NCBI GenBank assembly: GCA_937142855.1
Contig: CAKZQZ010000053.1
Span: 1 to 64,000 of the forward strand
Source: an uncultured Alphaproteobacteria bacterium
Lineage (GTDB): Bacteria > Pseudomonadota > Alphaproteobacteria > Puniceispirillales > Marisalimonadaceae
Length of the DNA: 64,000 bases
Direction: 5' to 3'
A program made the translations under genes and the position numbers. The notes beneath the pieces are model-generated. The model saw only the letters and a list, made by a program, of their open reading frames with translations. It made no database searches and was not told the DNA's origin. Positions within the stretch are counted from its first letter, which is position 1. Every line of letters starts with the position of its first letter. This document shows positions 10,556 to 56,903 of this stretch, in pieces.

Positions 10556-12034
10556 CTAAAATTTATTATAAATAACTTTTTGAGACTTCATCTTTTTTAT
10601 TTGAGCATAGTTCATCCAGCATGATAGATAAAATGTGGAATTAGTTATTTTTTTTCCTAACTCAATTTTTGAAATTGGTTTGTCATTAGAAGCAATTATT
10701 TTGATATTTTCACCTTCTAATATACTTTTAATTACACTAGATTTAATACCAAAATTTGTATTTTCTGGAATAACTCCAAAGTTCCTACTTGCGTATTTTA
10801 AGTCTAATTTGGCTACGGCTACACCAATTACGTTTCCTTTATCATTTAAAATTGGTCCACCACTATTACCTGGCTGGATTGCAGCATCAATCTGAAAATT
10901 TGAATAGTTATTTCCAACTCCTGTCAGCGAACTTACTATTCCTTTTGTAATTTTAATTGAAGTGCTTATTCTTTTTCCAAAAGGGAAACCTGCTACATAA
11001 ATATCTTGTAATAAGTTTGTTTGGTCATTGCTAATTGATAAAACTTGGTTTGGTATAAAATTACCTTTAATTAAAGCAAGATCGTTTTGGGGATCAAAGT
11101 TAATCACATTTGCCTCAATTACAGTGCTTTTATTATGAATTCTAACTTTTTGACAGCCTTTAATAACATGATAATTTGTAATTAAATGCCCTTTTTTAGA
11201 AATTGCAAAACCAGTACCAGATGATGCGTTGATCATCTTATTTTCAGGTATAACAGATTTTTCAAGGTTTTTACTTTGAGAAATATATTTATCATTTCTC
11301 CAAATACCTTTTTCTATTTTTCCATCATTATATGAATTGGTACCAGCACCATCACGTTTATCGTTCTTCCATTCCCCTATATATTTTTCTCCGTTCCCCC
11401 ATACATTTATACCCATTCCATTTCTTTTGCCATAAAGCCATTCACCTGTATAAACCTGACCAGAAAAATTTCCCTTTGGACTGAAAGTATAAGTTCCATT
11501 TCCATGATACTGGCCCTTTTTAAAATCACCAACATACAAATCACCATTTTGGTTTTTGAATGTACCAAAACAATTATCCCAATTTGTTGGGTTAATATTT
11601 ATATTACAGTCTGGAAGCTTAAATTTGTTTATATTATTTACACTTTGGTTTTTACAAACATAATCGGAGACCATTTTATTCATTGATTTTTTAGAATTAA
11701 TCTTCCAAGTTTTGTCAGAGGCAGAAACTTTTTTTTCTAAATTAGTTCCCATTGAACCATAATAAAACTCAAAGGAAAGAATTCTAAATAGATTCCTTCT
11801 ACAATCTAATTGTTTGTTAACTATTGTTGATAAAGAACCCCATTTATCTGGCTTCTTTTTATTTTGTAATTGTCTAATAATTAATTTCTCTTTTATAGGT
11901 TTTATACTTGTGTCATCCACATAAAATGAAGTGCCTGTTGTATTGACGCCAACATATTTCCACTCTGCATTAGAAGAGAAAGACATTGTTAAAGTTATAA
12001 GCAAGGCCAAAATTAAATTATAGATTATATTCAT
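10556..12034 (-). CDS. Secreted MORN-repeat protein with trypsin-like protease domain
   Basis: A 492-residue protein with an unusual domain order. Residues 1-23 are a signal peptide ending SSNA. Residues 24-110 (EWKYVGVNTTGTSFYVDDTSI) resemble the surface-adhesin E fold. Residues 155-245 hold three or more MORN repeats (YVGDFKKGQYHGNGTYTF, YTGEWLYGKRNGMGINVW, YIGEWKNDKRDGAGTNSY). From about 270 there is a DegP/trypsin-like domain with an intact triad: His289 (TNYHVI), Asp318 (NDLALIKG) and Ser391 (QPGNSGGP). No PDZ domain follows. It is probably periplasmic or surface-exposed; substrate unknown. It lies between the glmS-linked insert and the XRE gene. Confidence 0.85.
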   Translation of the reverse strand: MNIIYNLILALLITLTMSFSSNAEWKYVGVNTTGTSFYVDDTSIKPIKEKLIIRQLQNKKKPDKWGSLSTIVNKQLDCRRNLFRILSFEFYYGSMGTNLEKKVSASDKTWKINSKKSMNKMVSDYVCKNQSVNNINKFKLPDCNININPTNWDNCFGTFKNQNGDLYVGDFKKGQYHGNGTYTFSPKGNFSGQVYTGEWLYGKRNGMGINVWGNGEKYIGEWKNDKRDGAGTNSYNDGKIEKGIWRNDKYISQSKNLEKSVIPENKMINASSGTGFAISKKGHLITNYHVIKGCQKVRIHNKSTVIEANVINFDPQNDLALIKGNFIPNQVLSISNDQTNLLQDIYVAGFPFGKRISTSIKITKGIVSSLTGVGNNYSNFQIDAAIQPGNSGGPILNDKGNVIGVAVAKLDLKYASRNFGVIPENTNFGIKSSVIKSILEGENIKIIASNDKPISKIELGKKITNSTFYLSCWMNYAQIKKMKSQKVIYNKF

Positions 12035-48311: not shown

Positions 48312-48629
48312 CTATTTAGAAATTCTGGTTATACTTCCAGAAACCTCTGCTCCTAAGTCAATAGAAAGAGCATTAGTTTTAAGGTTTCCTTCCACTTTTG
48401 CACTACTGGCAACATTTAATGTGTTAGCTGAAACCTCGCCTTTCACCAACCCACCAAGCGTAACTTTATCTGCTACTAAATTTCCATCAAAAATACTATT
48501 AGCCTCCAAAAGAACATCTTTAGCTCTTAATTCTCCTTTAAATCTACCTGCCACTACAACGCTAGAACCAGCTGAGTCTAAATTACCTTCCATTACTAAT
48601 TCTTCAGAAATATATGTTATTTCGGTCAT
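48312..48629 (-). CDS. Bactofilin (third of three)
   Basis: 105-residue polymer-forming cytoskeletal protein. The beta-helix repeats are evident: ISEELVMEGNLDSAGSSVVVAGRFKGELRAKDVLLEANSIFDGNLVADKVTLGG, each turn with a buried valine/leucine and a glycine. It has almost no N- or C-terminal tails, so it is probably a polymer core subunit rather than a membrane-targeting one. Last gene in a tandem set of three on the minus strand. Confidence 0.9.
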   Translation of the reverse strand: MTEITYISEELVMEGNLDSAGSSVVVAGRFKGELRAKDVLLEANSIFDGNLVADKVTLGGLVKGEVSANTLNVASSAKVEGNLKTNALSIDLGAEVSGSITRISK

Positions 48630-48657: not shown

Positions 48658-49050
48658 TTACTTTGTGTCTTTTTGTTCATCTGAAACTTCACTAGTTTCT
48701 TTTTCCGTTTCATCTACTTTTGTACTAGCGTTTTCATTCCAATTATGAACAACTCTACAATTTAAAGCGGCCCCTCTATCCATTTGTAAGGACTTATAAT
48801 GGACTTCTCCACTTATACGAGATGTTTCAGTAAGCCAAACGCTCTCAGCCTGCATCTTGCCCTCATATTCACCAGCAATTACAACTAAATCAGAATCAAC
48901 TGCTCCAATAAATTTTCCTGTAGAACCAATAGTTACTTTTTCAGTAACTAAATCAGCTTCGACAAATCCATTAATTTCAATTGATTTAGCATTAGAAATT
49001 TTTCCACTAAACCGGGCTCCAGATCCTAAAACTGCCTGTTTATTAGCCAT
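48658..49050 (-). CDS. Bactofilin (second of three)
   Basis: 130 residues. The beta-helix core (GARFSGKISNAKSIEINGFVEADLVTEKVTIGSTGKFIGAV to RISGEVHYKSLQMDRGAALNC) is followed by a charged, Glu/Lys-rich C-terminal tail of about 25 residues that may bind partners. Together with its neighbours it could form mixed filaments beneath the membrane. Confidence 0.9.
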   Translation of the reverse strand: MANKQAVLGSGARFSGKISNAKSIEINGFVEADLVTEKVTIGSTGKFIGAVDSDLVVIAGEYEGKMQAESVWLTETSRISGEVHYKSLQMDRGAALNCRVVHNWNENASTKVDETEKETSEVSDEQKDTK

Positions 49051-49062
49051 TTATAATCTCCT

Positions 49063-49407
49063 CTATTTTTTATTTTGTCTTTTGCCAATTTGTGCTTCTA
49101 TAACTGCACCTTCTTCAATTGAAATGTTCTCATAAAAAACTTCACCAGAAATTTTCCCAGTAGACTTAACTGAGACAAAATCACCAGAAACTTGACCATC
49201 ACATTTACCAGATACAGTTATAACTTCAGCTTCAATGCTTCCTTTTAATGAACCAGAGCCCTCTACTGACAAACTGTTACATTTAATATCTCCTACTACA
49301 GAACCCAATAAAACCAAGCTACCTTCAGCAGAAATTTTACCTTTAATTTTCATATCACTTGAAATAATAGATTTTTCAGTATCAGTTTCGTTTGTTCTTC
49401 CTAACAT
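49063..49407 (-). CDS. Bactofilin (first of three)
   Basis: 114 residues. A polar N-terminal tail (MLGRTNETDTEKSIISSDMK) leads into the beta-helix (IKGKISAEGSLVLLGSVVGDIKCNSLSVEGSGSLKG to GEVFYENISIEEGAVIEAQIG). First gene of the minus-strand bactofilin operon. A sigma-54-like site (49529-49544, minus) lies 120 bp upstream. Divergent from the coiled-coil/M23 pair, the usual association in bactofilin systems where the filament recruits an M23 endopeptidase. Confidence 0.9.
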   Translation of the reverse strand: MLGRTNETDTEKSIISSDMKIKGKISAEGSLVLLGSVVGDIKCNSLSVEGSGSLKGSIEAEVITVSGKCDGQVSGDFVSVKSTGKISGEVFYENISIEEGAVIEAQIGKRQNKK

Positions 49408-49515
49408 TATGGAAATCCCTTTTCCTACTAGTTATATTCAATTAGAATCTATTTAATAATAAACATTAGTCATTATAATTAAACTAATTAAAAAAATTAT
49501 TCAAAATACATTTAT

Positions 49516-49532
49516 TTGGTATAAATGATGCA
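49516..49532 (+). promoter_or_regulatory. Sigma-54-like promoter of the coiled-coil/M23 operon
   Basis: TTGGTATAAATGATGCA: GG at 49518-49519 and GC at 49530-49531 have the invariant -24/-12 spacing. The site lies about 50 bp before the ATG at 49582. Its TGCA is shared with the opposing site on the minus strand. Confidence 0.6.
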
Positions 49533-49544
49533 ATTAACTTGCCA
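49529..49544 (-). promoter_or_regulatory. Sigma-54-like promoter of the bactofilin operon
   Basis: On the minus strand TGGCAAGTTAATTGCA is close to the sigma-54 consensus (TGGCACG, four bases, TTGCA). It uses the same TGCA as the plus-strand site, so polymerase could occupy only one at a time. Confidence 0.65.
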
Positions 49545-49581
49545 TAATAGTCACCGATAAAAAAAATTAGAGAATTTCAAA

Positions 49582-49956
49582 ATGGCTGAAGAAATAATTG
49601 ATTTGAGAGACCGCATAGAGAAGATGCGAGTCCAGATAGAAAATGAAGGCACAGAACAAATTAGAGAAAATTTTTCTAATGAAGTTTACCAAAAAACTAA
49701 AACTTCAAACATAACTTTATCTATGCAGCCTAAGAAAGTCGATGCGAATCAAAATCATGGAAAGATGATTAATAGCAAAGAGCTAAAGATAAAAGACAAT
49801 ACCACAAATGAAAATCAGAAAAAAAATGAGACTTTTCCTGCAGTTAGTTTGTCGGTTAAAAACCCTATTTCTAACAAGATTTTAGTTTCTATGTTTGTAG
49901 TACAAATTTTGTCCAATTTTGGCATCCTTTTCTTTCTTTTTTTAGGACTGGAGTAA
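49582..49956 (+). CDS. Membrane-anchored protein with N-terminal LRxRIxKMR helix
   Basis: 124 residues. The N-terminus AEEIIDLRDRIEKMRVQIE is a short amphipathic helix; a Lys/Asn-rich spacer follows and the C-terminus is a single membrane segment (KILVSMFVVQILSNFGILFFLFLG). The same N-terminal pattern recurs in the protein at 61054-61620 (LELRNRINKMRS), which also ends in a membrane helix. Three bases separate it from the M23 peptidase, so it is probably part of the bactofilin/M23 assembly. No known family recognised. Confidence 0.7.
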   Translation: MAEEIIDLRDRIEKMRVQIENEGTEQIRENFSNEVYQKTKTSNITLSMQPKKVDANQNHGKMINSKELKIKDNTTNENQKKNETFPAVSLSVKNPISNKILVSMFVVQILSNFGILFFLFLGLE

Positions 49957-49959
49957 CTA

Positions 49960-51300
49960 GTGGTTAATTCCACATTTAATAAATTTGGAAAAAACCTTCC
50001 ACCTGTAAAAACTGGTCAACGGTTTGGAGATGAAATCCAAAAAAACAAAAAATTAGGATTGTTTTCTGAAAGACGTTTTCTGATTTTTACTAGAAAAGGT
50101 CCAATTGAAATTGCTTTTAAACCAATACATTATACTGGTGCTATAATTTCTACTTTTGTAGGTTTAACAAGTATTATTTATTGGTCAGCACAAGGGTTAT
50201 TTTCAGCAATAGATGTTGCAAAAAAAAATGATATAATTACCGAAGCTTCAGCAAACATTCCTAGTCCTATTGAAAATGACTCCGACACTGTAGTGAATAT
50301 AGATGTTCAAGATCAATCTAATATTACACTTCCAACCTCAAGAAAAATATTAGATGATGATTATAATAATCAAAATGAAATTTATGAAATAATAAAAAAC
50401 AGCCAAATACCAAATAGTAATTCGAAATTTAATAATAAAACTAATTCTAATTTTACAGCAGCTAAAATAAATACTTTTAAATATAGTCTTTTTAAAAGTA
50501 CTAGAAGAAATCAAGACATTCCTGTTTTGTCTTCACAAGAAATTTATAATGAAAGTAACATTATCACATCAAAACTTTTAAACAACGAAACAGATACAGA
50601 ATTTAAAGTACCACAACCTCCTAAATTAAACGCTAAAGCAAAAAGTCTACGTTTTTTAGCCTCTGTTAATAATGAATTAATACAAATGGAAAATGTATTT
50701 AGGAAGATTAAAGTAAGAATAAATAATACAGACTTAGTTAGCGTTGATTCAATAATAAACAATGGTCAAGATATTGATCCGGAAAGTGATGACTTTTTTA
50801 GAAACTTAAGCAATCGTCTTAATTTATTAGCAATTTACAAAGAAGCTCTTCAAAACATACCTCTTAAACCTCCTATGGAACATTATTACGTTTCAAGCTC
50901 TTATGGACCAAGAAAACACCCAGTGACTGGCAAATATAGAATGCACCATGGTATTGATTTAGCAGGAACATGGCAAGAAAATGTCACAGTTTCAGCGGAT
51001 GGCAATGTTGTTTTTGCTGGCTATCATGGGTCATTTGGAAAAGTCATTAGAATTAAACACAATTATGGCATAATGACTACATATGGCCATTTAGCAAAAA
51101 TTAATGTTAAAAGGGGTGACATTGTAAGTGAAGGACAAGTTATTGGAAAAATGGGCAGGACAGGAAGAGTCAAAGGTGCTCACCTTCATTATGAAATATC
51201 TGTCAATGGAAAGTCTCAAAACCCAGCTAAATATATAAAAATAGGTAGAAATCTTCTCAGTAGATCAAGCTTAAAAGGATACGTTAATAAATCAAATTAA
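49960..51300 (+). CDS. M23-family peptidoglycan endopeptidase, bactofilin-associated
   Basis: 446 residues, GTG start. A cytoplasmic N-terminus (about 50 residues, ERRFLIFTRKGPIEIAFKPIHYTG) is followed by one membrane helix (AIISTFVGLTSIIYWSAQGLF) and a long Asn/Ser-rich periplasmic spacer. The LytM domain runs from about residue 308 (VSSSYGPRKHPVTGKYRMHHGIDLAG). Zinc ligands are in HHGID and HLHYE, with YGHLAK also present, so the enzyme looks active. This layout matches the LmdC-type peptidases encoded next to bactofilins in other alphaproteobacteria. It would cut cross-links where the filament sits. Confidence 0.9.
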   Translation: MVNSTFNKFGKNLPPVKTGQRFGDEIQKNKKLGLFSERRFLIFTRKGPIEIAFKPIHYTGAIISTFVGLTSIIYWSAQGLFSAIDVAKKNDIITEASANIPSPIENDSDTVVNIDVQDQSNITLPTSRKILDDDYNNQNEIYEIIKNSQIPNSNSKFNNKTNSNFTAAKINTFKYSLFKSTRRNQDIPVLSSQEIYNESNIITSKLLNNETDTEFKVPQPPKLNAKAKSLRFLASVNNELIQMENVFRKIKVRINNTDLVSVDSIINNGQDIDPESDDFFRNLSNRLNLLAIYKEALQNIPLKPPMEHYYVSSSYGPRKHPVTGKYRMHHGIDLAGTWQENVTVSADGNVVFAGYHGSFGKVIRIKHNYGIMTTYGHLAKINVKRGDIVSEGQVIGKMGRTGRVKGAHLHYEISVNGKSQNPAKYIKIGRNLLSRSSLKGYVNKSN

Positions 51301-51309
51301 AAATAGAGT

Positions 51310-51326
51310 TTGGCATAACTAATGCA
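51310..51326 (+). promoter_or_regulatory. Sigma-54-like promoter of the 63-residue orphan
   Basis: TTGGCATAACTAATGCA with GG at 51312 and GC at 51324, the same spacing as the other sites. It lacks the opposing CC, so it is one-directional, matching the single plus-strand gene that follows at 51357. Confidence 0.55.
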
Positions 51327-51356
51327 TTTAATTTCTAGCTATGGAGATTAAAAAAA

Positions 51357-51548
51357 ATGTTAAAAAAATTAAATCTACAAAATAACAATCAAGAAAAAAT
51401 TCTATTTAACAATATAAATGATTATGTAATAAAAATTGATTATTATGATGATAAAGGTTCTAAAAAGAAAAAATATAATGTTCCATTAAAATATATTTTG
51501 AATAATAGTTATCATATGTCAAATAAGCCTGAGTTTTGTGTTAATTAA
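51357..51548 (+). CDS. Small hypothetical protein (63 aa)
   Basis: MLKKLNLQNNNQEKILFNNI followed by VIKIDYYDDKGSKKKKYNVP and a short tail. Preceded by GGAG about a dozen bases before the ATG and by a sigma-54-like site, which supports expression. Lys/Asn/Tyr-rich, no membrane segment. It ends two bases before the stop of the convergent rpoN. Function unknown. Confidence 0.55.
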   Translation: MLKKLNLQNNNQEKILFNNINDYVIKIDYYDDKGSKKKKYNVPLKYILNNSYHMSNKPEFCVN

Positions 51549-51550
51549 AA

Positions 51551-53041
51551 TTAATTAGATACCATCTTCTGTAACCTTGATGCTCTTCTTCTTTGAGCAC
51601 TTGATGGAATTTTAAGCATATCCCTATACTTAGCTACTGTTCTTCTGGCCACATTCATTCCATCTTTATTCAAAATTCTAGCTAATTTATCGTCACTAAG
51701 AGGTTTGTTAGATATCTCTGAAGATATCAAGCTTTTTATGGTTTCTCTTACAGCTGAAGCCGCATGCATTTCAGAATTTTCTGAACTAGAAATAGACGCT
51801 GAAAAAAATTGTTTTAGTGGGAATACTCCCCACTCTGTTAACATAAGTTTACTATTAGTCACCCTGGACACTGTGCTTTCATGCATTCCAATTGCGTCCG
51901 AAATATCCTTCAATATCATTGGTTTCATATGATTAAGCCCATGCCTAAAAAAACCTACTTGTTTTCTAACTATTTCAGATGATACTTTTAATATAGTTTT
52001 ATTTCTCTGTTCTACTGCTTTTTTAAGCCAACGTGCTTCACCTATTTTTTCAAAAGTAAAATTATTGGCTTTCTCATCTAATTTATATTTTTCAATTTCA
52101 TTTATATATTCTTCATCAATTGAAACAGTTGGTAAAGTTGATCCGTTCAAATCAATTCTCCAACCTTTTTCTGATCTCTTGACAATTATATCTGGTTGAT
52201 CAACTAAAATTTTTTCTTGTGAAAAATTTTCGGCAGGTTTTGGGTTCAAAGTTTTAATAACTTTTATCATTTCAAATAAAGAATTTTCTGAAACTTTGCA
52301 TAGCTTGCTAATTTGTTTAAACTTTCCCGAAGGTAAATGCGGTAGGTTATCTAATAGAATATTATAATGTTCATTAAAAAGGTTTTTATCAATTAATTGT
52401 AGTTTTAAACATTCAGATAAATTTTCAGAAAATATACCAACAGGTTCTAATCTTTTTAATCTATCTAATATTTGCGAAATTTTTTGTTCATTAATATTTA
52501 AATCCTTTTCAATCTCACTTTTAGAATGCGTAAACCAACCGCTTGGATGCAAATAATCAATCATGGCTATCGCAATGGACTTATTATCCTTTTCACTAAA
52601 TTCAATATTAATTTGATTTACAAGACTTTCTTTAAGAGAGATTTTATTTTCTAGCGTTTTCTCAATTACTTCACCAGCAGATACATTATTACCAGTTCTT
52701 AGTATTTCTTTGTCATATAGTTTTTTATTTTCTTGGTTATTATTTGATGACAAATGTGAATCAAAAGTATTTTGCATATCTAATTCACTATTCTTTTTTA
52801 AAGGATCTGAGGTGTTATTCATATTTTGATATACGTCAGGACTTTCAGTTCCTTTGTTTGTATTATTTATTTCCAAGTATTCCTTTTGATCTTGAATAAA
52901 AGGGTTTTCTAATTGCGCTTTTTCAACAAACTCAGCTAATTCTAAATTAGTCAACTGCAATAATTTTATTGCCTGTTGCAATTGAGGTGTCATAATTAAA
53001 GACTGGTTTTGTTTGATTTTAAGCTGTTGACCCAATTTCAT
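51551..53041 (-). CDS. rpoN: RNA polymerase sigma-54 factor
   Basis: Directs polymerase to -24/-12 promoters that need an AAA+ activator. Start at ATG 53041, placed by GGAG just upstream. 496 residues. Region I is Gln/Leu-rich (LKIKQNQSLIMTPQLQQAIKLLQLTNLELAEFV). An acidic, Asn-rich linker follows to about residue 130. The core-binding domain contains DYLHPSGWFTHS and RLKRLEPVGIFSENLSECL. HTH: LKDISDAIGMHESTVSRVTN. The RpoN box ARRTVAKYRDML is intact. It lies between the bactofilin and motAB regions, in which I see five matching promoter sites. Confidence 0.96.
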   Translation of the reverse strand: MKLGQQLKIKQNQSLIMTPQLQQAIKLLQLTNLELAEFVEKAQLENPFIQDQKEYLEINNTNKGTESPDVYQNMNNTSDPLKKNSELDMQNTFDSHLSSNNNQENKKLYDKEILRTGNNVSAGEVIEKTLENKISLKESLVNQINIEFSEKDNKSIAIAMIDYLHPSGWFTHSKSEIEKDLNINEQKISQILDRLKRLEPVGIFSENLSECLKLQLIDKNLFNEHYNILLDNLPHLPSGKFKQISKLCKVSENSLFEMIKVIKTLNPKPAENFSQEKILVDQPDIIVKRSEKGWRIDLNGSTLPTVSIDEEYINEIEKYKLDEKANNFTFEKIGEARWLKKAVEQRNKTILKVSSEIVRKQVGFFRHGLNHMKPMILKDISDAIGMHESTVSRVTNSKLMLTEWGVFPLKQFFSASISSSENSEMHAASAVRETIKSLISSEISNKPLSDDKLARILNKDGMNVARRTVAKYRDMLKIPSSAQRRRASRLQKMVSN

Positions 53042-53325
53042 TTTAATCTCCATAAAGTAAATTTGTTACTTAACGATCAAAGGAAAACAGTAAAATTAAA
53101 ACAAATCAAAATCTTAATTTGACGAATAAATAAAACAAAAAAATGACTGATGTAATATTCAAATTCAAAAAATAAAACGAATAAAAACAGTTACTTATAT
53201 AATTTATAGAAAAAAGACACTTTTTAGTTTATAAATTTTATTTTTTATATATAAAAAAGAAGAGTCAATTATTTGGCAAAATAACAACTGATTTATTTTA
53301 CTGAGATAAAATTAAAACTTTGATT

Positions 53326-53553
53326 ATGCCTAATGAACCAAATACGAAACCAAAATGCAAAAATTGCCAGATAATTCGTATTTTCTTACTAAGTGTCGCT
53401 TTTATTATACTATTAAGCCTAATACAAAGTGACAAATTACATTATCTTAAAATAATTACTCCATATAATGCTGCTTTTTTAATAATATTCTTAGGGTTAA
53501 TTATGTTTTGTATAAAATTATTAAAATATTTGGCAGAAAAGAAAAAAAATTAG
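53326..53553 (+). CDS. Small two-helix membrane protein (75 aa)
   Basis: Starts at ATG 53326 (MPNEPNTKPKCKNCQIIRIF). A short N-terminus with a CxxC pair is followed by two membrane segments (IFLLSVAFIILLSLIQ and AAFLIIFLGLIMFCIKLL) and a basic tail. No family recognised. It ends three bases before the stop of the convergent DUF1566 gene. The 270 bp before it (53054-53319) are very AT-rich; I see only a weak half-site there. Confidence 0.6.
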   Translation: MPNEPNTKPKCKNCQIIRIFLLSVAFIILLSLIQSDKLHYLKIITPYNAAFLIIFLGLIMFCIKLLKYLAEKKKN

Positions 53554-53555
53554 AA

Positions 53556-54050
53556 CTATCTATCTCGAACCAACCTTACATAATTAGGGATAAATTCAGG
53601 AAACCTTCCAAACGTATGTCCTGTGAAAAAGTTAACTGTCCACATAAATTTGGGCTGCCAAGCATTTATTTCATTTGTCCAAAATGAATCAGCAGGAGTG
53701 TTAGGAAAAAGTTTTGTATCAATTTTAACAGCGCCACATGATTTACAGACAATTCGTTCTAACTCTTTCCTATTAGGCAAACGCCACTTTCCTCCTAGTT
53801 GTTCACTAGCTTGTTCAATGGCAAATTTTATTTGTTTATATTTCAATTTTAAAGGTGTACCTACACAAGTTTTATCTTGCCATACCATTCCAACTGGGCA
53901 CGTTAACCATTCAATTTTTTGTCCAAGGTCAATAACATAATGTCCCCTAGTGATAAAATTACTAGCCCAAACATTGTTGAAATTCGAATAAATTAATAAT
54001 AGTATAATTATAGCTTTAACACTAATTAGTGGTATTTTGAAAAATAACAT
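53556..54050 (-). CDS. Secreted DUF1566 (Lcl-type) domain protein
   Basis: 164 residues. Signal peptide about 1-29 (ends NNVWA). The mature part is a DUF1566 domain: DLGQKIEWLTCPVGMVWQDKTCVGTP, AIEQASEQLGGKWRLPNRKELERIVC and DSFWTNEINAWQPKFMWTVNFFTG. The LGGKWRLPNRKEL segment is the domain's hallmark. Four cysteines may form disulfides. Such domains resemble C-type-lectin folds and bind surface ligands in a few studied cases. Divergent from motA, with which it shares an overlapping sigma-54-like site. Confidence 0.8.
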   Translation of the reverse strand: MLFFKIPLISVKAIIILLLIYSNFNNVWASNFITRGHYVIDLGQKIEWLTCPVGMVWQDKTCVGTPLKLKYKQIKFAIEQASEQLGGKWRLPNRKELERIVCKSCGAVKIDTKLFPNTPADSFWTNEINAWQPKFMWTVNFFTGHTFGRFPEFIPNYVRLVRDR

Positions 54051-54082
54051 AAAACCTCTGTGTTTTTTTATAAATTCTTATT

Positions 54083-54099
54083 TTGGTCTTATTCTTGCA
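54083..54099 (+). promoter_or_regulatory. Sigma-54-like promoter of motA
   Basis: TTGGTCTTATTCTTGCA: GG at 54085-54086, GC at 54097-54098, 48 bp before the motA ATG. The -12 half is perfect (TTGCA); the -24 half keeps only TTGG. Confidence 0.55.
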
Positions 54100-54112
54100 G
54101 TAATTGTGCCTA
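54096..54112 (-). promoter_or_regulatory. Sigma-54-like promoter of the DUF1566 gene
   Basis: Minus-strand TAGGCACAATTACTGCA keeps GGCAC and TGCA at the correct spacing. Its TGCA (54096-54099) is the same as that of the motA site, repeating the geometry seen at 49.5 kb. Confidence 0.6.
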
Positions 54113-54146
54113 ATATCACTATTTTATACATAAAAAAGGCAAAAAA

Positions 54147-54911
54147 ATGGATATAGCATCTTTAATTGGACTAATAGGTACTCTAGGAATGATAGCTGGG
54201 GCCATGGTTTCTTCAGGAGGCATTGGAGCCTTTATAGACACACCATCAATGTTGATTGTTATCGGGGGAACATTCTTTGCAGTTATGTACCGATCAACCT
54301 TGCCAATGTTCTTAGCCTCATTTGGTGCTATGGTCAAAGTTTTCATGCCTGGAGCAAAAAAACATGATGAATTAATTACTAGACTTACTGAACTAGCGGG
54401 AATTGCAAGGAAAGATGGAATGATGGCGTTAGAAGGCCAAGAAGTTCCTGATAAATTTTTTGAAAAAGGTTTGCAAATGCTTGTTGATGGAGCTGATGAA
54501 TCTAAATTAACAGATCAATTAAACAGAGAATTAAAAGCTATGAAAGTTAGGCACGAAAATATGACAGGAGTTTTCCAAGCTTGGGTTGATTTAGCGCCAG
54601 CCATGGGAATGATTGGAACACTTATTGGGCTTGTTGCAATGTTGGGTAATATGGCTGACCCAAAGGCTATTGGTCCTGCTATGGCTGTTGCGTTATTAAC
54701 AACCTTGTATGGTGCTATGATAGCTAACTGTATATTTATGCCAATTGTAACAAAATTGGAGGGCTATTCGGCGCATGAAGTGCTTTATAGAGAAATGGTT
54801 GTTATGGGCCTAAAATTTATCTCTAGAGGAGAAAGTCCAAGAAATATTACTGATCAGTTAGTTGCAAACTTACCACCAAAAATCCAAGCCCAAATTGAAG
54901 AAGCTGCATAA
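54147..54911 (+). CDS. motA: Flagellar motor stator protein MotA/PomA-like
   Basis: Ion-channel half of the stator that powers flagellar rotation. 254 residues, four membrane helices: IASLIGLIGTLGMIAGAMV, MLIVIGGTFFAVMYRST, then the cytoplasmic loop with the charged RKDGMMALEGQEV segment, then FQAWVDLAPAMGMIGTLIGLVAML and GPAMAVALLTTLYGAMIANCIFMPI. The last two are the MotA/TolQ/ExbB signature. It resembles sodium-type PomA more than E. coli MotA. No flagellar structural genes are in the window, so use in another stator-like machine is possible. Confidence 0.9.
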   Translation: MDIASLIGLIGTLGMIAGAMVSSGGIGAFIDTPSMLIVIGGTFFAVMYRSTLPMFLASFGAMVKVFMPGAKKHDELITRLTELAGIARKDGMMALEGQEVPDKFFEKGLQMLVDGADESKLTDQLNRELKAMKVRHENMTGVFQAWVDLAPAMGMIGTLIGLVAMLGNMADPKAIGPAMAVALLTTLYGAMIANCIFMPIVTKLEGYSAHEVLYREMVVMGLKFISRGESPRNITDQLVANLPPKIQAQIEEAA

Positions 54912-54935: not shown

Positions 54936-56111
54936 ATGGCTGAAGCTCAAGTAGTAGAAGAACAAGAAGAAGAAGAATGTCCCAAATGCCCACCAGCAGG
55001 AGCACCTGCTTGGATGGCTACATTTGCCGATATGGCCACCTTATTAATGGCATTTTTTGTTCTAATCTTATCTTTCGCAGAATTTAATGTTCCAAAGTTT
55101 AAACAAATAAGTGGTAGTTTAAAAAATGCTTTTGGCGTTCAAAAAGTTGTTCCGGTAGTTGAACAACCAAAAGGTACTACAGTATTATCATTAAATTTTA
55201 GTCCATCACCTGCTCCTTCAGTCACAAAAAATCTCAGACAACAAACTTCAGATTCAGAGCAAAAAAACTTAGATCTAAAATCTGAAATTGATGAAGGTGA
55301 TAGTGCTAAAAGTAATTCAAAAGAAGTTATGGATGCAAAGGAATTAAGCGAACAAATAAAATCTGAAGTTTCCTCAGAAGACGTTAAAGTTGAAACAGTA
55401 AACGACAAAGTTTTAGTTAGCTTAAACACAGAAAACAAAACAGCAGACGAAATTTCTAATTTAATAAAAGATACTGTTGATGCTGTTGAAAATGCTAGAG
55501 AAAGTACAGGCGCTAATGAGACAGACGTTCTTATTGGTGGGATAGATAAAGACATTAAATCTATGGCTTCTGCAGAAATAGAAAATAAATCATTAAAAGA
55601 ACAAATGAATAACCTAGAAAAGCAGAATTCCAATGATAAAAAGGATTTACAGGAAAAGACAAAAAAAGCTGAATTTAGTGAAGATCAACTAAAAGTCGCT
55701 CTTAAACAAGAAATTGGTAAAGGTTTGGCTGAAGTTCAAAGAGAAAAAGATAGAGTTATAGTAACAGTTGGATCAGCAGGAGCTTTTAGTTCTGGATCTG
55801 CAAGGCTTACAAAGCAAGCAAGAGCCATAATGCAAAAAATAGCTAAAGTTAGTGGCAAAGGTGCAGGCCAGGTTAATGTTTCTGGACATACAGATAACGT
55901 ACCACTAATTTTTGGAGGTCAATATAGAGATAATTGGGATCTTGCCGCTGCTAGAGCATCAAGCGTTGTTCAAGAGCTAGCAAAAGCAAACACTATACCT
56001 TCTGAAAAGTTAAAAGCTATTAGTTTTGGAGAAACCAAACCCATAGAACAAAATGACACACGTGACGGTAGAGAAAAAAATAGACGAATTGAAATTGAAA
56101 TCAAATATTGA
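54936..56111 (+). CDS. motB: Stator protein MotB/PomB-like with long linker and OmpA domain
   Basis: 391 residues. The N-terminus CPKCPPAGAPAWMATFADMATLLMAFFVLILSFAEF contains the ion-carrying Asp in TFADMATLL and the plug/linker start. From about residue 85 to 255 there is an acidic, Ser/Glu/Lys-rich region with coiled-coil character, much longer than the usual MotB linker. The OmpA-like peptidoglycan-binding domain follows (SGSARLTKQARAIMQKIAKV, NVSGHTDNVPLIFGGQYRDNWDLAAARASSVVQEL, ISFGETKPIEQNDTRDGREKNRRIEIEI). It follows motA by 24 nt. Confidence 0.9.
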   Translation: MAEAQVVEEQEEEECPKCPPAGAPAWMATFADMATLLMAFFVLILSFAEFNVPKFKQISGSLKNAFGVQKVVPVVEQPKGTTVLSLNFSPSPAPSVTKNLRQQTSDSEQKNLDLKSEIDEGDSAKSNSKEVMDAKELSEQIKSEVSSEDVKVETVNDKVLVSLNTENKTADEISNLIKDTVDAVENARESTGANETDVLIGGIDKDIKSMASAEIENKSLKEQMNNLEKQNSNDKKDLQEKTKKAEFSEDQLKVALKQEIGKGLAEVQREKDRVIVTVGSAGAFSSGSARLTKQARAIMQKIAKVSGKGAGQVNVSGHTDNVPLIFGGQYRDNWDLAAARASSVVQELAKANTIPSEKLKAISFGETKPIEQNDTRDGREKNRRIEIEIKY

Positions 56112-56129: not shown

Positions 56130-56903
56130 ATGGTAGCAAATATGGAAGATGGAAATAATAACTTAAACAATACAGAAGGATATTCACCTGAAGCTATTTC
56201 AAATTTTGAATTAGCCATTGAAGAATTTGCAGAATCCCTTTTAGCTATAAAATCTGAAGACGCTAATATAGCTGTTTTTAGGAGCCTTCAAATTATAATG
56301 AATGGTCGTAAAAGAAGAATAGGTGATTTAGGAAACGTAGAATCTCCCGATGATCCGATGAAAATTCAGTTAATGATTTATAATAAAGAGCATGTTCAAG
56401 AAGTTTGTGATTTTATTAGAGAAAGTGGCTTCCCTGCAAAAAATGAGGAAGGATCTCAGTTTATTCACATTAGAGTTCCTAAGCCATCAAGAATGCAATT
56501 AGAAGAAATAGGAGATGACATAGGTAGACGAACAAATTCAGTTTGTACTAGGCTAACAAAAATGAAAACTAATACAGGACTTAGAATTAGAGCTGCTATG
56601 GAAAAAGAATTTATTGACCAACGAATTGCTAATTTAGCGACAAAGCGAATTAATGATAATTTAGATAGATGTACCCAAGAAGTTCGCATTATTGGTCTGA
56701 TGAAGAGAAAAAAAATTCTTGGTAGTTTTTTTAAGACAGTTGAAAGAGATGACAATGACTTACTAAAAATTATAAATAAAAGAGTTAAATTAGAGCAAAG
56801 AAGAATTGAAAATCAGAACCAAATGAAAATACAAACAGAGGCGTTAGCAAAGCAACAAGAAGAAACAAAAGAAATAATCCACGAGGGTGTTGTTGCTAGT
56901 TAA
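56130..56903 (+). CDS. Ribosome-recycling-factor-like protein of unknown function
   Basis: 257 residues. Residues about 70-165 resemble the core of ribosome recycling factor: VESPDDPMKIQLMIYNKEHVQEVCDFIRESG, then IHIRVPKPSRMQLEEIGDD, a helical Arg/Lys-rich stretch and LTKMKTNTGLRIRAAMEKEF. In RRF the equivalent reads DIRVPLPPLTEERRK and so on. N-terminal and C-terminal parts differ (acidic N-terminus, C-terminal coiled coil EQRRIENQNQMKIQTEALAKQ). It follows motB by 18 nt, an unexpected place for an RRF, so it is a paralogue of unknown role rather than frr. The similarity is by eye. Confidence 0.5.
   Translation: MVANMEDGNNNLNNTEGYSPEAISNFELAIEEFAESLLAIKSEDANIAVFRSLQIIMNGRKRRIGDLGNVESPDDPMKIQLMIYNKEHVQEVCDFIRESGFPAKNEEGSQFIHIRVPKPSRMQLEEIGDDIGRRTNSVCTRLTKMKTNTGLRIRAAMEKEFIDQRIANLATKRINDNLDRCTQEVRIIGLMKRKKILGSFFKTVERDDNDLLKIINKRVKLEQRRIENQNQMKIQTEALAKQQEETKEIIHEGVVAS

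Follow-up and report, generated by a model that had tools for sequence, protein, structure and literature searches.

Predicted sigma-54 promoters, among them two interlocked divergent pairs, in a bactofilin, rpoN and motAB gene cluster of an uncultured alphaproteobacterium

Genes and predicted promoters of the cluster

The window, that is, the whole stretch of 64,000 nucleotides analysed here, belongs to the genome (2.32 Mb in 122 contigs) of an alphaproteobacterium of the SAR116 type, and relatives of its MotA protein at 89–96% identity were found nearly all in SAR116 cluster bacteria. The genes and other features of the locus are listed in Table 1. Three bactofilin genes lie divergent from the genes for a 124-aa protein (cc124) and an M23 peptidase, and a DUF1566 gene lies divergent from motAB; a gene for a 63-aa protein, rpoN and a small ORF are found in between. 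In relatives belonging to the family of the window (f1), the gene order 86-aa gene–bactofilins–M23–rpoN–DUF1566–motAB was kept up to the contig ends, and it was partly kept in other families of the same order (those compared below are f2–f4). The rpoN gene was present as given in a preliminary description of the locus, and its start codon could be at 53053 as well as at 53041, the position given there. The 63-aa protein, which had been called an orphan, is instead conserved in the family. No Pfam match could be obtained for it or for the 124-aa protein; possible distant relatives of the 63-aa protein, around a PL motif, were seen in family f4 (L081–L083).

Table 1. Positions in the window of genes, predicted sigma-54 promoters and interlocked elements
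Feature	Position	Strand	Basis or remark
Bactofilin 3	48312..48629	-	PF04519, 1.1e-18
Bactofilin 2	48658..49050	-	PF04519, 1.2e-20
Bactofilin 1, gene nearest the shared element	49063..49407	-	PF04519, 1.2e-20
Predicted sigma-54 promoter, coiled-coil/M23 operon, TTTGGTATAAATGATGCA	49515..49532 (GG-N9-TGCA 49518-49532)	+	32/32 family members
Interlocked element GG-N9-TGCA-N9-CC, bactofilin/M23 gap	49518..49543	.	shared TGCA 49529-49532
Predicted sigma-54 promoter, bactofilin operon	49529..49546 (GG-N9-TGCA 49529-49543)	-	CC arm invariant 32/32
124-aa protein (cc124), C-terminal hydrophobic stretch	49582..49956	+	conserved in family
M23 peptidase, probably membrane-anchored (inspection)	49960..51300	+	PF01551, 6.8e-30
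Predicted single sigma-54 promoter, 63-aa gene, TTTGGCATAACTAATGCA	51309..51326 (GG-N9-TGCA 51312-51326)	+	32/32 rows
63-aa protein	51357..51548	+	ORF and family conservation
rpoN (sigma-54), all three domains	51551..53053	-	PF00309, PF04963, PF04552
Small ORF between rpoN and DUF1566, hydrophobic (inspection)	53320-53553	+	no Pfam match
Lcl_C/DUF1566-type protein, probably exported (inspection)	53556..54050	-	PF07603, 1.5e-20
Predicted sigma-54 promoter, motAB, TTTGGTCTTATTCTTGCA	54082..54099 (GG-N9-TGCA 54085-54099)	+	pattern match, conservation
Interlocked element GG-N9-TGCA-N9-CC, DUF1566/motA gap	54085..54110	.	shared TGCA 54096-54099
Predicted sigma-54 promoter, DUF1566 gene	54096..54113 (GG-N9-TGCA 54096-54110)	-	CC arm invariant 28/28
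motA, stator gene	54147..54911	+	PF01618, PF20560
motB, stator gene	54936..56111	+	PF13677, PF00691
Ribosome-recycling-factor-like gene, 3' of motB	56130..56903	+	PF01765, 32.9 bits, cut-off 29.7

Several further observations were made on these genes. The DUF1566 protein is rare: in a class-wide sample of 289 genomes, 7 had a match. The small ORF next to its gene is kept in most SAR116 families and in HIMB59-like genomes (a clade label taken from one member, L176). The ribosome-recycling-factor-like gene, a weak match above the cut-off, is kept in the family and has a HIMB59-like relative near motB on the opposite strand; a full Frr is also encoded in the genome (G000:C36), and a paralogue of this factor within a stator operon is odd. 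Two relatives (loci L069 and L072 in genomes G041 and G044) carry a second, partly decayed C-terminal fragment of rpoN just downstream of the intact gene.

The preliminary description had listed five GG-N9-TGCA sites with the spacing of sigma-54 promoters, each aimed at a gene, and all five were found in place. The distance from GG to GC is N10 in every one of them, the context is TGG/TTGC-like, and each site is intergenic and is followed on its own strand by a gene. After removal of ORFs of at least 60 aa, the intergenic DNA of the window amounted to 37 segments with 4,647 bp, in which GG-N9-TGCA was matched exactly at these five sites and nowhere else, as had also been claimed; 2,000 shuffles gave a mean of 0.28 matches (maximum 3), so that the sites are far commoner than chance would give. 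In the three focal gaps taken alone, five matches compared with 0.013 expected. Over the whole window there were 26 matches versus 14.8 expected, mostly inside genes. The start codon of the first bactofilin gene is 121 bp from its site, the usual distance in this genome being 28–50 bp, and another promoter may lie between the two.

In both divergent regions the opposing sites share their central TGCA, as first described, and together form an exact 26-bp GG-N9-TGCA-N9-CC element. Two such interlocked patterns occur in all intergenic DNA of the window, compared with 0.002 expected from shuffles.

Conservation and distribution of the interlocked elements

Conservation was counted among related genomes with the complete region. 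In family f1 the interlocked pattern was kept in all 32 bactofilin/M23 gaps and in all 28 DUF1566/motA gaps, GG and TGCA being invariant in every family row, and across all family members no other stretch of 26 columns in either gap was as well conserved as the element. The single site before the 63-aa gene serves as an internal control: here GG-N9-TGCA was likewise present in 32/32 rows, whereas the CC arrangement was found in only one of them. Mean identity over the nine bases 3' of TGCA was 0.56 at this site, compared with 0.93 and 0.92 for the two interlocked elements; in the two columns of the CC position it was 0.45, compared with 1.0 and 1.0. Since the downstream half of the single site is unconserved, these comparisons indicate that the reverse half of the interlocked elements is under a constraint of its own and is not simply carried along by a conserved neighbourhood. 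Interlocking was also kept in loci L122–L161, mostly from SAR116 and partly from the same genomes as the family set.

Outside this family the gap between DUF1566 and motA mostly contained two separate opposed sites (families f2–f4), with their -12 GCs about 50–100 bp apart; one f2 genome (L086) had the forward site only. The separate reverse site in these families is an argument for regarding the reverse half as an independent promoter. Among the HIMB59-like loci, 14 of 19 had the interlocked form at motA and the other five (L171, L172, L176, L185 and L187) had the forward site only. The DUF1566 gene is present in four of these five, the fifth locus ending at a contig end; reverse activity would therefore be dispensable in those four genomes. 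One locus of Rhodobacteraceae (L198) also fits the interlocked form, possibly by chance. On a tree of MotA and MotB (58 rows, quick method), in which A+T-rich lineages may have been pulled together, the interlocked state required four changes, of which the starred branches force at least three, and the tree appears to fit gain and loss of this state alike.

It should be noted that bare GG-N9-TGCA-N9-CC, which occurs at 24 places in the genome when coding and intergenic DNA are taken together, is too weak alone to be a genome-wide marker. A stricter symmetric pattern gave scattered matches of unclassified position in 190 genomes across the class, many of them in G+C-rich genomes, and the control, the pattern read backwards, is imperfect for this comparison; no obvious wide use of the symmetric pattern could be recognized.

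Flagellar sigma-54 sites and candidate activators

When the genome was scanned for TTTGGYMTN6TGCA with one mismatch allowed, 88 matches were obtained versus 27 for the reversed pattern, and the surroundings of all matches were inspected for ORFs. Intergenic matches 30–50 bp before a start codon preceded the cc124, 63-aa and motA genes in the window and, elsewhere, genes for flagellin and FliD as well as FlgB-like, FlgF/G-like and FlgH-like genes (the '-like' names were assigned by inspection). At L224 an unrelated gene is preceded at 18 bp by a further intergenic match, which may be due to chance. A looser pattern applied to the flagellar contigs, in which Pfam confirmed flagellins, FliD and FliS, added sites before a FleT-like bacterial enhancer-binding protein (bEBP) gene and two flagellar operons, and overall the same motif was found 28–50 bp before flagellar operons elsewhere in the genome. 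A divergent sigma-54 pair of the separated kind was also seen in this genome, at L205:11100-11210 between FlgH-like and FlhA-like genes, with the reverse GC at 11108 and the forward GC at 11202.

In conservation, orientation, spacing from the start codon and resemblance to the flagellar promoters, the five sites of the window look like sigma-54 promoters. As the same promoter type precedes the flagellar operons of the genome, the cluster seems to belong to the sigma-54 regulon of the flagellum, which would appear to be extended to bactofilins, an M23 peptidase, the 63-aa protein and the DUF1566 gene. The envelope and motility regulon proposed earlier thus stands with respect to its sites, rpoN and activators, and its scope has to be widened from the cluster to the whole flagellar system. 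Control of exterior functions, including motility, by sigma-54 has been described (PMC3162934); no mention of bactofilin or motA was found in that article. Control of rpoN itself by sigma-54 was considered and dropped, no sigma-54 site upstream of this gene being found in the window; among the matches listed, some f4 genomes have such a site. A conserved stretch with spaced TGAC repeats, AATTTGAC, lies upstream of rpoN at 53054–53150 and recurs across several families; it is possibly the site of a regulator.

The preliminary description had proposed a search for an AAA+ activator gene. Above the cut-off, six genes of the genome matched PF00158. Two of them form a divergent pair within the flagellar cluster, two lie beside NtrB/NtrC- and NtrY/NtrX-looking genes, and two are weak matches. 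The first flagellar bEBP (398 aa) has an AAA+ domain and lid and is preceded by a sigma-54 site, and no Fis-type HTH could be identified in its Pfam domains and sequence; the second (375 aa) has an HTH_8 domain and is without an N-terminal regulatory domain. GAFTGA and GSFTGA loops were seen in these sequences. In Rhodobacter sphaeroides, FleT is not known to have an HTH, nor FleQ an N-terminal regulatory domain, and by domain make-up, compared without a tree, the flagellar pair found here may be described as resembling FleQ/FleT. In that species FleQ drives the operon containing fleT, and motA and motB are among the class III genes that a FleQ–FleT heterodimer activates (PMC7277832); two flagellar bEBPs are likewise present here with motA and motB among their putative targets, whereas bactofilins, an M23 peptidase and the 63-aa gene appear to join the regulon in the present genome. 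No activator binding site was identified at the locus. A TACTAYAGTA-like candidate, which many relatives have in the 5' region of their bactofilin genes, was rejected since it is degenerate in the genome of the window.

Use of the two directions and comparison with known systems

Transcription from sigma-54 promoters usually starts about 12 nt after the GC. Starts predicted at this distance are ~54110 for motA and ~54085 for DUF1566, that is, the outer ends of the element, and each falls on the -24 GG of the partner; the same is the case for 49543 and 49518 at the bactofilin/M23 element. Given the predicted starts on the partner's -24 and the shared TGCA, it is impossible by geometry that two holoenzymes occupy one element together. 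On this basis, sigma-54 RNA polymerase, whose RpoN subunit is encoded in the middle of the cluster, would bind the -24/-12 sites, and the complex would be opened by AAA+ enhancer-binding proteins of the flagellar system, probably the FleQ/FleT-like pair. With two opposed promoters interlocked in 26 bp and both -12 GCs carried by one TGCA, each element would accept only one polymerase at once, and an open complex formed one way would melt into the opposite promoter. Such a compact bidirectional promoter might fire in alternate directions under the same activator, and the two operons would be co-expressed in a roughly fixed ratio, without an on/off switch at the level of the cell. We infer transcription both ways, the identity of the activator, the alternation and its effect; the sites themselves, their orientation, their conservation and their likeness to flagellar promoters can be read from the sequence. 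Membership of the flagellar regulon together with a bidirectional sigma-54 promoter of this alternating kind is, in our opinion, the probable explanation.

The mutual exclusion of the opposing promoters suggested previously appears to hold in so far as no two polymerases could occupy one DNA molecule at the element. A bound polymerase might in addition shut the opposite operon and produce alternative cell states, for example, motile cells versus cells remodelling their envelope. Simultaneous occupancy is precluded by the overlap, which is strictly conserved at both loci while the third divergent pair (L205) is separate, and this would agree with such an either/or switch. However, bactofilins and the M23 peptidase look like partners in one function, as do DUF1566 and the stator; both directions depend on one sigma factor and probably on one activator, and f2–f4 mostly use separate sites for DUF1566 and motA, so that exclusion is not required. 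The apparent co-function of the partners and the separate sites in relatives led us to prefer alternating co-expression and to regard such a switch as unlikely, alternating or coordinated expression being at least as likely as a switch.

It might also be supposed that only the forward promoters (M23 and motA) are used and that the reverse half is kept for some need of the activator, of IHF or of the early transcribed sequence. The reverse arm is indeed absent in some HIMB59-like genomes, and the bactofilin and DUF1566 genes could be transcribed from promoters elsewhere, but the conserved reverse bases form a correctly spaced sigma-54 site, which at each of the two loci faces a gene, and in f2–f4 the motA gap mostly has a reverse sigma-54 site of its own, which makes this explanation quite improbable. 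A reading of the 26-bp dyad as an operator for a dimeric regulator, with no promoter pair in it, which the two-fold symmetry of GG, TGCA and CC might suggest, was rejected as exceedingly improbable because the arms are asymmetric, matching at ~8–9 of 15 positions that are mostly those of the sigma-54 consensus, and because the 63-aa gene and many flagellar operons have a lone GG-N10-GC half before them, in the orientation of the gene.

If both directions of the bidirectional promoter fire, a very small and long-conserved DNA device would couple two operons through one activator-dependent promoter, a natural test would be available of how sigma-54 polymerase chooses its direction on a near-symmetric site, and in uncultured marine bacteria the flagellar programme would include a conserved small protein as well as the bactofilin/M23 genes for cell shape. 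More tentatively, and with somewhat less than even confidence, the SAR116 family and the HIMB59-like clade may possess a distinct class of core promoter, a single bidirectional sigma-54 element of 26 bp in which the -12 is common to both directions and which, opened by an activator, sets fixed ratios of stator to DUF1566 and, in the SAR116 family, of bactofilin to peptidase.

No divergent sigma-54 pair sharing one -12 element was found in a limited search of the open-access literature, and several known systems are similar in part. Bactofilins likewise stand beside an M23 peptidase in known cell-shape modules, for example, those of the LmdC and Csd1 type; the present module differs in its predicted sigma-54 control and in adjoining rpoN and motAB. 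Bidirectional sigma-70 promoters with symmetric -10 elements are known, in which one symmetric core likewise serves both directions, but they depend on another class of sigma factor, whereas at sigma-54 promoters an activator has to drive the opening with ATP. Divergent sigma-54 promoters occur in the E. coli hydrogenase-3 cluster (Lutz 1990, cited in PMC3844500) and in the Desulfovibrio orp operons, which are under one activator and were called synchronised (PMC3897727). Two sigma-54 promoters fire apart in both systems, as would be the case here. IHF sites lie between the two orp promoters (PMC3897727), and their core promoters therefore share no bases, whereas in the elements described here the -12 TGCA is common to both directions.
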